64,000 nucleotides of DNA from the NCBI RefSeq assembly GCF_000421745.1, contig NZ_ATXP01000005.1:124001-188000 (forward strand), written 5' to 3'. The notes beneath the pieces were generated by a model, which searched no databases, was not told the DNA's origin, and worked only from the letters and a program-made list of their open reading frames with translations. Of this stretch, positions 1 through 3,003 are shown in pieces; within the stretch, counting starts at the first letter, position 1; each line of letters starts with the position of its first letter. The stretch comes from Nesterenkonia alba DSM 19423 (GTDB lineage Bacteria; Actinomycetota; Actinomycetes; Actinomycetales; Micrococcaceae). The translations under genes and the position numbers were made by a program.

Positions 1-607
1 CTTCTCCGGCGACGAGGGCATTCCGGGCGGGTCCGCCGCCGTCGTAGGAGACAATATTGAACTCTGCGCCGGTCTCCTCCTGGAGCCTCAGCAGCGCGAT
101 GTAGTTGGCGTTGGTTAGGTTGGATACGCTCACCCGTAGCTCACCGGGACGCTGTTGAGCCTCCTCGATGAACTCCTCGATCGTCTGCCAGGGCGCACCG
201 TCGGCCACCCACAAGGCGGAGGGTTCGATGGTGAATCCGGCCAGTGGCTCGAAGTCGTCGTAGGTGTATTCCACGGTGCGAGTCAGGTAGGAGAAGATCA
301 CGTCCGGGATAGCGTGGATCATGAACGGTTCACAGTCACCGCCGTTTTGCGCGACATACGTGGTTCCGACGGTGAACTGTCCGCCTTCGCGATACTCCAC
401 TTCCAGTGGTTGCCCCAACTCCTCTTCGACGTAGGGCTGCACTTCGCGGAAGACCGTGTCCAGTGCGCCTCCGGCAGCAGTGGGAATGACGAACTGTACC
501 GGGTCCTCCGGCCAATCGGCGTCATCGGCCCCTCCAGTCCCACAGGCGGCCACCGCGCCCATTGCGGCGATCGAGAGTATGCCTAGAGAAGTCGTGCGTA
601 CGTTCAT
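1..607 (-). CDS. TctC/Bug-family solute-binding lipoprotein (partial, C-terminus outside window)
   Basis: The frame is open from an ATG at 607 to the window edge, giving about 202 residues without a stop. The N-terminus has a hydrophobic signal and a lipobox ending AVAAC, followed by a TctC-like start (PVQFVIPTAAGGALDTVFRE). This matches the extracytoplasmic binding proteins of tripartite tricarboxylate transporters, which capture carboxylates outside the membrane for a TctAB permease. No permease gene is visible because the gene runs out of the window. It diverges from the small controller-type regulator at 797, and a C-box-like site lies 41 bp upstream of its start, so that regulator probably controls it. 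The family call is by motif recognition; the ligand is unknown. Confidence 0.85.
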   Translation of the reverse strand, partial: MNVRTTSLGILSIAAMGAVAACGTGGADDADWPEDPVQFVIPTAAGGALDTVFREVQPYVEEELGQPLEVEYREGGQFTVGTTYVAQNGGDCEPFMIHAIPDVIFSYLTRTVEYTYDDFEPLAGFTIEPSALWVADGAPWQTIEEFIEEAQQRPGELRVSVSNLTNANYIALLRLQEETGAEFNIVSYDGGGPARNALVAGE

Positions 608-647
608 CGTTGTCCCCTTCGACAGATAGTGATTCCGCTCACATGCT

Positions 648-673
648 ACTTATAAGTGTGTAGATTGAAAAGT
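648..673. promoter_or_regulatory. C-box-like operator 1 (tctC-proximal)
   Basis: A 26-bp element with paired half-sites: ACTTATAAGT, then GTGT, then AGATTGAAAAGT. It is enclosed by an 8-bp inverted repeat, TGCTACTT at 644-651 and AAGTAGCA at 670-677. The layout resembles C-boxes bound by restriction-modification controller proteins. It lies in the promoter region of the divergent binding-protein gene. Confidence 0.7.
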
Positions 674-747
674 AGCAACTCAGTGCGTCTCTCAAGGTGC
701 AGAACTTGGGTGAGGGAAGACAGTTAGCGAGATTCACACCCGTTGCT

Positions 748-773
748 ACTTATGAGTGTGTAGATCTTCGAGT
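748..773. promoter_or_regulatory. C-box-like operator 2 (regulator-proximal)
   Basis: A second copy of the element, exactly 100 bp downstream of the first: ACTTATGAGT, GTGT, AGATCTTCGAGT. The flanking arms TGCTACTT (744-751) and AGTAGCA (771-777) are conserved. It lies 23 bp upstream of the regulator's GTG, as expected for autoregulation. Confidence 0.7.
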
Positions 774-796
774 AGCAGACTCTCATTGTTGAATGC

Positions 797-1036
797 GTGG
801 CAAAGGGAGACCTGCAAAGACGAGTGGGGGCAAACCTCCGCCGATATCGTCTGGAGCGTGGGCTCTCTCAGGAAGCCTTCGCAGAGGTCCTCGACGTACA
901 CCGCACCTATATGGGAGGGGTCGAGCGCGGTGAACGTAACCTCACCTTGCAATCCGTGGAATCGATTGCTGAGCGTCTCGGACTTGACCCCCTCGAGTTG
1001 CTCACCCCTGGGTCTCCCCACGAGTACACCCGATAG
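797..1036 (+). CDS. XRE-family regulator resembling R-M controller (C) proteins
   Basis: A 79-residue protein consisting almost entirely of an HTH_3 (Xre/Cro) domain. The HTH runs from about residue 18 to 45 and includes GLSQEAFAEVLDVHRTYMGG, followed by VERGERNLTLQ and a C-terminal LGLDPLELL helix. The HRTYMGGVERGERN signature and the length are typical of C proteins that time restriction-enzyme expression. No restriction or methylase gene lies next to it; the only R-M pair in the window is 50 kb away and lacks this operator. The GTG start is chosen because it follows the second operator and gives the canonical N-terminus. It probably binds the two operators upstream and controls itself and the divergent TctC-type gene. 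Its function as an orphan controller is inferred. Confidence 0.8.
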   Translation: MAKGDLQRRVGANLRRYRLERGLSQEAFAEVLDVHRTYMGGVERGERNLTLQSVESIAERLGLDPLELLTPGSPHEYTR

Positions 1037-1155
1037 TGTTCGAACAGCCCTTCTGCTGACACGCTTGAGGGGCCCACTACCACTGGTTGGCGGTCTTGGG
1101 GCTGAAGCCGTAAGATAGGCGAGTTGTGCGCACTTGAGCGCACGTACGCAGTAGA

Positions 1156-1199
1156 ACCTCCTGTTACGGAAAGCCCGTGACCGCAAGACCAGAGGAGGT
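1156..1199 (+). promoter_or_regulatory. rpsF leader with sequestered ribosome-binding site
   Basis: ACCTCCT at 1156-1162 is a perfect complement of the Shine-Dalgarno AGGAGGT at 1193-1199. Pairing would hide the rpsF ribosome-binding site in a hairpin whose loop contains CCG elements. Such leaders are known for S6:S18 autoregulation. The assignment is by position and pairing only. Confidence 0.55.
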
Positions 1200-1209
1200 G
1201 GGTTCATTC

Positions 1210-1509
1210 ATGCGTCACTACGAACTGATGGTGATCGTCGACCCCGAGGTGGACGAGCGCACCGTTGAGCCGACTCTCGGCAAGTACATGGAGCTGGTGA
1301 AGAAAGAAGGCGGCTCCGTGGACAACATCGACGTCTGGGGACGTCGTCAGCTCGCCTACGAGATCGACAAGAAGTCTGAAGGCATCTACGCCGTCGTCGA
1401 CTTCCACTCCACACCGGACTCCGCCAAGGAGCTGGACCGACTGCTGCGCCTGAACGAGACAATCATGCGCACCAAGATCACCCGTCCCGAAGAAATGCGG
1501 GTGGCCTGA
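1210..1509 (+). CDS. rpsF: 30S ribosomal protein S6
   Basis: A 99-residue S6 protein (starts [20 protein letters not shown]; later [20 protein letters not shown]), the usual bacterial length. It binds 16S rRNA together with S18 in the small-subunit platform. The ATG at 1210 is chosen over upstream GTG codons because the protein then begins with the conserved MRHYE and follows the AGGAGGT ribosome-binding site. It is the first gene of rpsF-ssb-rpsR-rplI. The leader may allow feedback by S6:S18. Confidence 0.97.
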
Positions 1510-1560
1510 TAGGCCCACCACATCTAGGTACACGAACAGAAAGAAACTAGGTACACCACT

Positions 1561-2139
1561 ATGGCCAACGAAACCATCATCACCGTCGTCGGGAACCTCA
1601 CCGCGGACCCGGAGCTGCGCTTCACACCCTCCGGTGCAGCAGTGAGCAACTTCGTCATCGCATCCACCCCACGGTACTTCGACCGTCAGGCCAATGAATT
1701 CAAGGACGGCGAAACGCTGTTCGTGCGCTGCTCGCTGTGGCGGGAAGCCGCGGAGAACGCCGCCGAATCCCTGACCAAGGGCACTCGGGTCATCGCCCAG
1801 GGGCGGTTGAAGGCACGCAGCTTCCAGGACAAAGAAGGCAACAACCGGACCTCCTGGGAACTCGATGTCGACGAGATCGGCCCCTCCCTGCGTTTCGCCA
1901 CGGCCCAGGTCAACCGCCAGGGTCGCAGTGGCGGCGGAGGCGGCGGCTTCGGTGGCGGCCCCCAGCAAGGCGGAGGCTTCGGCGGAGGGGGAGACTCCTT
2001 CGGCGGCGGAGCGCAGCAGGGCGGCGGCTGGGGTAGTAACCCCGGTGGCGGCCAGGGACAGCAGCCCGACCCCTGGGGCGGTCAGCCCTCCTCCGGCGGC
2101 GGCTGGGACACCCCGAACAACGACGAGCCTCCGTTCTAA
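1561..2139 (+). CDS. ssb: Single-stranded DNA-binding protein
   Basis: 192 residues. An N-terminal OB fold (about residues 1-115; [20 protein letters not shown] at the start) is followed by a glycine/glutamine-rich disordered linker and the acidic tip DEPPF, which recruits replication and repair partners. It covers single-stranded DNA during replication, recombination and repair. It lies in the classic position between rpsF and rpsR, which fits the housekeeping SSB rather than a competence-specific paralogue. Confidence 0.97.
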
Positions 2140-2212
2140 GAGACTCACCGACCATTGATCCCCATCCCGCGCACCCGCGTGCGCGGGCTCCAGATGAAAG
2201 AGGAGCACCACG

Positions 2213-2455
2213 ATGGCAAAGCCTGACATCACCAAGAAGCCCAAGCCCAAAGCGAACCCGCTGAAGGCTGCGGACATCACCCACATCGACTACAAGGACA
2301 CGGCGCTGCTGCGGAAGTTCATCTCCGACCGCGGCAAGATCCGCGCCCGCCGGGTCACCGGAGTCTCCGTGCAGGAGCAGCGCAAGATCGCCCAGGCCAT
2401 CAAGAACGCCCGCGAGATGGCCCTGCTGCCCTACTCCGGCGCCGGTCGCGGCTGA
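2213..2455 (+). CDS. rpsR: 30S ribosomal protein S18
   Basis: 80 residues with the S18 core ([19 protein letters not shown], then [20 protein letters not shown]). It partners S6 on the small-subunit platform. The ribosome-binding site AAAGAGGAG lies upstream of the ATG. No zinc-binding cysteine motif is present, so this is a C-minus form if the genome has two copies. It is the third gene of the operon. Confidence 0.97.
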
Positions 2456-2486
2456 TCCACACTGAGGAAGGAAAGGAACCACTGAT

Positions 2487-2942
2487 ATGGCAAAGCTCAT
2501 CCTGACTCAGGAAGTGACCGGTCTCGGTGCCCCCGGCGACGTCGTCGAGGTCAAAGACGGCTACGCGCGCAACTACCTGCTGCCGCGTGGCTACGCGATG
2601 ACCTGGACCAAGGGCGGAGAAAAAGACGTCGAGCGCATCCGCGCGGCCCGCAAAGCCCGCGAGATCGCCACGATCGAAGAAGCCCAGCAGATCGCCGAGA
2701 AGCTACAGTCCAAGCCCGTGACCGTCAGCGTGAAGACCGGCGAGTCCGGCCGCCTCTTCGGCACCGTCGGCCCGGCCCAGATCGCCGAGGCCGTCGAGGC
2801 CGAAGGCCTGGGCTCCATCGACAAGCGCACTGTCGAGATCCCCGAGCGGATCAAGGCCGTGGGTAGCTACACCGCCACGGTGAAGCTGCACAGCGACGTC
2901 ACCGCAAGCCTGGACCTCAACGTGGTGCCGGCCGGCAGCTAA
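2487..2942 (+). CDS. rplI: 50S ribosomal protein L9
   Basis: 151 residues. The N-terminal RNA-binding domain ([20 protein letters not shown], then [16 protein letters not shown]) is joined by a long connecting helix to the C-terminal domain ([19 protein letters not shown]). It binds domain V of 23S rRNA near the L1 stalk. It is the last gene of the ribosomal operon and is followed by a strong hairpin. In many actinobacteria dnaB follows closely; here 16 kb intervene. Confidence 0.97.
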
Positions 2943-2965
2943 GCCCCAGCCCACACTGAGCGCTC

Positions 2966-3003
2966 AAGGGCCCTGAGGAGTACACACTCCTCGGGGCCCT
3001 TTC
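2966..3003 (+). terminator. Rho-independent terminator after rplI
   Basis: A long GC-rich hairpin: left arm AAGGGCCCTGAGGAG, loop about TACACA, right arm CTCCTCGGGGCCCTTT, ending in a short T run. It separates the ribosomal operon from the peptide-transport operon. Confidence 0.85.

Follow-up and report, generated by a model that had tools for sequence, protein, structure and literature searches.

Controller (C) proteins act as timers of restriction enzymes, with threshold-type and in some cases bistable kinetics. C-type genes located away from restriction genes were reportedly described by Sorokin, Severinov and Gelfand in 2009; orphan C-proteins as such are already known, and that study is not known to describe transporter wiring with a second C-box. 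The box of the C.PvuII class is described as two GACT-TAT-AGTC operators around a GT centre (PMC4824078). The same source places boxes of distinct affinities at both the C gene and the methylase gene of Esp1396I, and the title of a PDB entry names OM as the highest-affinity site of that system. C-like proteins that affect other genes include C.Csp231I, which acts on the Rac prophage, adventitiously in a foreign host (PMC11014345), BswR of Pseudomonas, which controls motility and biofilm (PMC3985676), and NHTF of Neisseria (PDB 3vk0), all acting outside restriction genes. A C-box pair common to a transporter was not seen for C.Csp231I or BswR in the accessible parts of PMC11014345 and PMC3985676, nor for any transporter operon in the literature searched (titles and abstracts, with few subscription papers), which makes this a weak absence. 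For Deinococcus, the accessible text refers to transporters solely among the genes with altered expression or sequence status in R and M knock-outs (PMC10855626).

The window analyzed here is the whole stretch of 64,000 nucleotides (C5:124001-188000) of the Nesterenkonia alba genome (G000; 2.59 Mb, 98.5% complete). Near its left end, a small regulatory gene is transcribed divergently from a tripartite tricarboxylate transporter operon (Table 1), in which tctC is followed, just beyond the window, by tctB (PF07331, 1.7e-10) and tctA (PF01970, 2.6e-128). The regulator matches Pfam HTH_3 (4e-13), and its top PDB sequence matches are C.AhdI (6.6e-11) and C.BclI (7.8e-11). C.BclI and C.AhdI are also the best PDB structure matches of its model (mean pLDDT 91.4, from 43 aligned homologues), and the ten best rows include NHTF, BldD and C.Esp1396I as well. 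The C-protein signature recognized in the initial annotation was thus confirmed: this is an HTH protein of approximately 80 residues whose nearest known relatives, in sequence and predicted fold, are C-proteins, and a predicted C-box lies directly 5′ of its gene. It resembles C.AhdI, C.BclI, C.Esp1396I and the C.PvuII class in size, HTH fold, sequence and the box before its own gene. In contrast to restriction C-proteins, it has no restriction or methylase neighbours, and a second box lies at a transporter operon. No sensor domain is present within its 79 residues.

Table 1. Features of the regulator-tctC region (positions in the window).
Feature	Position	Strand	Basis
tctC, 5′ part; solute-binding lipoprotein of a tripartite tricarboxylate transporter (TTT)	1-607	-	PF03401, 1.5e-17; ATG at 607
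Box 1, distal predicted C-box	644-677	+	Matrix score 55.2 (+ orientation), 32.0 (- orientation)
Box 2, proximal predicted C-box	744-777	+	Matrix score 50.2; family-typical position
C-protein-type HTH regulator, 79 aa	797-1036	+	GTG start; Pfam, PDB sequence matches, structure model

The neighbours of the locus are tctCBA and rpsF-ssb-rpsR-rplI; adjacent restriction endonuclease and methylase genes, as expected of a type II system, are absent among them. Profile searches for two DNA methylase families, PF01555 and PF00145, with positive controls in well-known genomes for both, gave no match anywhere in the source genome, so the idea of a restriction system just outside the window was discarded. 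The genome of Nesterenkonia muleiensis (G013), which carries a close homologue of the regulator, has two PF01555 matches, both on contigs other than that of the regulator. A methylase motif was found within three ORFs of the regulator in five of 52 loci, with positive Pfam results in both of those tested (L067 and L109), and a DNA methylase is the next gene in L067, L109 (Pfam) and L111 (motif). The initial annotation had called the regulator an orphan. This description holds genome-wide for these two families in G000 and for the neighbourhood in G013; it does not extend to L067, L109 and L111.

The two predicted boxes are 34 bp each and 82% identical, a similarity for which 0.00 occurrences are expected by chance (100 shuffles). 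A fuller box pattern matched the source genome at these two places alone (control 0), and a looser, arm-only pattern recovered both at 0-1 mismatches; approximately 20 unrelated rows at three mismatches are meaningless, because the control counts were 120 and 118. Scores were obtained with a matrix of 50 boxes (37 distinct; L062-L111 without L087, plus L125), none of them from Nesterenkonia; after boxes 1 and 2, the best independent site of the window reaches just -4.4. Chance similarity was ruled out by the shuffles, the genome pattern search and the matrix scores. The elements lie, as initially proposed, exactly 100 bp apart (start-to-start) and 5′ of both the regulator (19 bp from the end of box 2 to the GTG) and the divergent TctC-type gene (36 bp from box 1 to the ATG). 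The conserved outer arms of that proposal, TGCTACTT/AAGTAGCA, are exact in box 1, while the right arm of box 2 reads GAGTAGCA instead of AAGTAGCA. The box consensus, TGCTACTcATaAGTCTGTAGACCgacAAGTAGCA, contains ACT-N4-AGT with a degenerate right half and outer TGCT/AGCA arms, and is a variant relative to the GACT-TAT-AGTC pair of the C.PvuII class.

Box 2 occupies a position that is shared by relatives of the regulator. Among 51 loci in named genomes (L061-L111, among the best 80 loci; L068 is a Saccharibacteria bin and the others are actinobacteria by title or taken as such), the box core was found directly 5′ of the regulator in 50, with 1-5 mismatches in 17 positions, the exception being L087. 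Box 2 corresponds to the box conserved upstream of the gene throughout this C-protein family, the members of which are mainly actinobacterial. A pattern search matched 20 of 22 genomes, with one or two sites per genome (control 0), and missed G013 and G002; G297 and G407 in this sample look like one genome by their coordinates. Across 394 genomes of the class, matches occurred in 11, and those of the backward control in two. The 19-bp spacing between box and start codon is the most frequent one among family members (18 of 45 distinct), and a tetramer resembling a ribosome-binding site is present in just 9 of 45 upstream stretches; together, these features fit leaderless transcripts, which are described as common in C.PvuII- and C.EcoRV-type operons (PMC4824078).

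More distant homologues in G002, G017, G020 and G027 (61-65% identical) have no such box within 19-kb regions (best scores -7.3 to 1.0). Their genes (L045-L048, in G002, G017, G027 and G020, respectively) are divergent from one encoding a 517-residue lipoprotein without a Pfam family, and integrase- and plasmid-like genes lie near the box-less regulators of L045 and L047. Seven plasmid records encode homologues with 45-49% identity. Distant second sites found by the matrix scan in L061-L125, where examined, precede regulator paralogues, except in L076, whose second C-box precedes a gene pair encoding a GNAT protein and a membrane protein; a weak distant second site (21.4) is present in L075. 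Several other genes recur within three ORFs of the regulator: a GNAT acetyltransferase in 8 of 52 loci (L062, L066, L068, L071, L072, L075, L076, L078), a membrane protein of approximately 380 residues without a Pfam family in 6 of 52, and, by motif, a small DUF6907-type protein (CPxWC motif) in 17 of 52 (L061-L111 and L125), e.g. L074:6244-6678 and L084:6279-6677, with positive Pfam results in both tested. In Actinomyces timonensis, the C-type regulator adjoins a Gabija-like pair (L070:6305-9955) that consists of a UvrD-type helicase and an AAA/TOPRIM protein resembling OLD.

A distal box such as box 1 is unusual: a census of the 380 bp upstream of C-type genes (99 distinct regions, score ≥5) revealed no box in 31, one box in 65 and two boxes in three. 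All three two-box regions face divergent solute-binding-protein operons, with Pfam-confirmed TctC, DctP and SBP_bac_5 proteins, of the TTT (G000), TRAP (G013) and ABC-Opp (G1068, a Brevibacterium-group genome) types, respectively. The Fisher value for two boxes versus transporter (2e-5) is descriptive only, as the boxes were already known when the transporter label was assigned, and close relatives are among the 65 one-box regions. In G013 the regulator is 88% identical to that of G000 and divergent from dctPQM, an unrelated transporter operon; the boxes are 56 bp apart and score 29.8 (box 1) and 13.0 (box 2), versus -15.1 for the best independent site elsewhere in 17.5 kb. In G1068 the regulator is 69% identical and divergent from an oppA-led ABC operon ending in a RidA-like gene; its boxes, 72 bp apart, score 19.0 and 20.1, versus -12.9 in 16 kb, with a matrix that is not fully independent in this case (Brevibacterium boxes in the training set). 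The autoregulatory boxes of G013 and G1068 are weak, and box 1 scores above box 2 in G000 and G013, but not in G1068. A tree of 91 regulator segments joined G000 and G013 (support 0.94) and placed G1068 elsewhere with weak support, which suggests that the two-box wiring to transporters may have arisen more than once.

Further binding-protein partners were sought by a lipoprotein scan of 117 C-type ORFs (88 distinct), the motif of which missed G1068; among the 65 one-box regions it covered divergent transporters bearing a lipobox. Beyond G000 and G013 it flagged L005-L008, L093, L276, L079, L091, L106 and L117. L005-L008 encode a 517-aa lipoprotein, the counterpart of which in L047 has no Pfam family, the candidate of L093 has no Pfam family either, and L079, L091, L106 and L117 were judged to be chance.

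At the sequence level, the evidence comprises the predicted family and fold of the regulator, its own C-box, a second strong C-box and two further two-box transporter loci. We favour, with somewhat better than even confidence, the reading that this C-protein-type regulator is autoregulated and has the divergent tctCBA operon as a second target, the proximal box serving autoregulation and the distal one transporter control. By binding box 2, the regulator would adjust its own level, its transcript probably being leaderless, and it would also bind box 1 next to the tctC promoter, a layout similar to that of Esp1396I, with one box at the C gene and one at the methylase gene (PMC4824078). Because just 36 bp, including a likely ribosome-binding site (GAAGGGGA), separate box 1 from the tctC start, a leadered tctC mRNA would require a promoter with its -35 region inside box 1, an argument that applies to G000 only. 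Given this overlap, the effect on the transporter through the distal box is probably repression, for which the methylase promoters of Esp1396I and Kpn2I provide precedents: the bound regulator would exclude sigma at the tctC promoter, as proposed for C.Kpn2I (PMC6237814). In the absence of a sensor domain, expression of the transporter would depend on how much regulator is present and not on a ligand. The suggestion in the initial annotation that the circuit appears co-opted for transport control gains from the recurrence of the transporter link with TTT, TRAP and ABC-Opp operons, although there are only three such two-box cases.

In G000 and G1068, box 1 gives a higher score in the direction of the regulator (55.2 and 19.0, respectively) than in that of the transporter (32.0 and -1.2); in G013 it is nearly symmetric (29.8 versus 27.1). 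Box 1 may therefore serve the regulator. This orientation is the best argument for the alternative that both boxes serve the regulator's own promoter, with box 1 as an auxiliary upstream operator and the transporter as a divergent bystander; the other 65 boxed regions, in which one box before the regulator suffices, may also be cited for it. However, the spacing between the boxes varies (100, 56 and 72 bp), the three regions with a second box are those that face a divergent operon for a binding protein, and box 1 of G000 lies 36 bp from the tctC start; we consider this explanation unlikely. Slightly less likely still is activation of the transporter via box 1, as in C-R operons, the C-boxes of which activate at low protein levels (PMC4824078); uptake would then be delayed or bistable. 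A sigma-70-type scan, which found no promoter at 560-1240, would agree with activation, but carries little weight as shuffles give only 0.3. Against it, box 1 of G000 and G1068 does not point to the transporter, and the transporter start codon lies at varying distances from box 1 (36, 70 and 207 bp in G000, G013 and G1068, respectively).

The distance between the boxes had been equated in the initial annotation with about ten helical turns and taken to favour looping or co-operative binding. At 10.5 bp per turn, 100 bp corresponds to 9.52 turns, and the spacings in G013 and G1068 to 5.33 and 6.86 turns. There is no conserved in-phase spacing, and neither this claim nor a model of two-operator repression by phased looping is supported.

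Since C-proteins can give bistable switches (PMC3695507), a bolder interpretation of transporter control may be put forward, although tentatively: C-type switches, detached from restriction systems, might on several occasions have been connected to uptake operons of unrelated types (TTT, TRAP, ABC-Opp), with a sensorless 79-residue protein exerting ligand-independent, threshold or bistable (all-or-none) control of uptake. Such a portable regulator would travel with transporter operons or capture them. If a C-type circuit does control uptake operons, a regulator of selfish elements would have been domesticated, providing a natural test of a minimal activator-repressor loop whose output is non-toxic. 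As three transporter families are involved, a comparison of the three intergenic regions offers a way to test the idea.

The locus is situated between genes encoding an M18 peptidase and RpsF. Of 30 genomes of the genus, 29 yielded an RpsF match, and 25 of the 28 besides G000 were examined at this junction, which is closed (≤425 bp) in 22 of the 25 Nesterenkonia regions. Insertions are present in G000 (5.2 kb, comprising the regulator, tctABC and a gene of the AAA/DUF4143 type), G013 (24 kb), and G010 and G004 (approximately 5 kb each, with other metabolic genes). With 4 of 26 genomes affected, including G000 (L249, L251, L044/L247 and L002), metabolic and transport genes seem to insert preferentially at this junction in Nesterenkonia. 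No tRNA was found at the insertion in L002. Across 30 Nesterenkonia genomes, no other TctC protein exceeds 34% identity; the tct transporter therefore looks acquired, and its vertical descent within the genus was rejected.

These insertions, together with the methylases adjoining some family members, would be in line with the locus being what is left of an island acquired horizontally at this junction, its regulator functionless. The ORF and both boxes are intact, though, and the 88% identity of the regulator between G000 and G013 is similar to that of RpsF (86.7%) and higher than that of the M18 peptidase (75.4%), although these genomes are not sisters in a two-gene (M18 and RpsF) tree; this explanation is very improbable.

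An Rfam search of window positions 1-3000 gave two sub-threshold matches, both away from the locus, and none at the rpsF leader (1120-1210). This leader (CCTCCTGT...ACGGAA...AAGACC...AGGAGG) is nearly identical in five Nesterenkonia junctions and is perhaps a ribosomal-protein leader.
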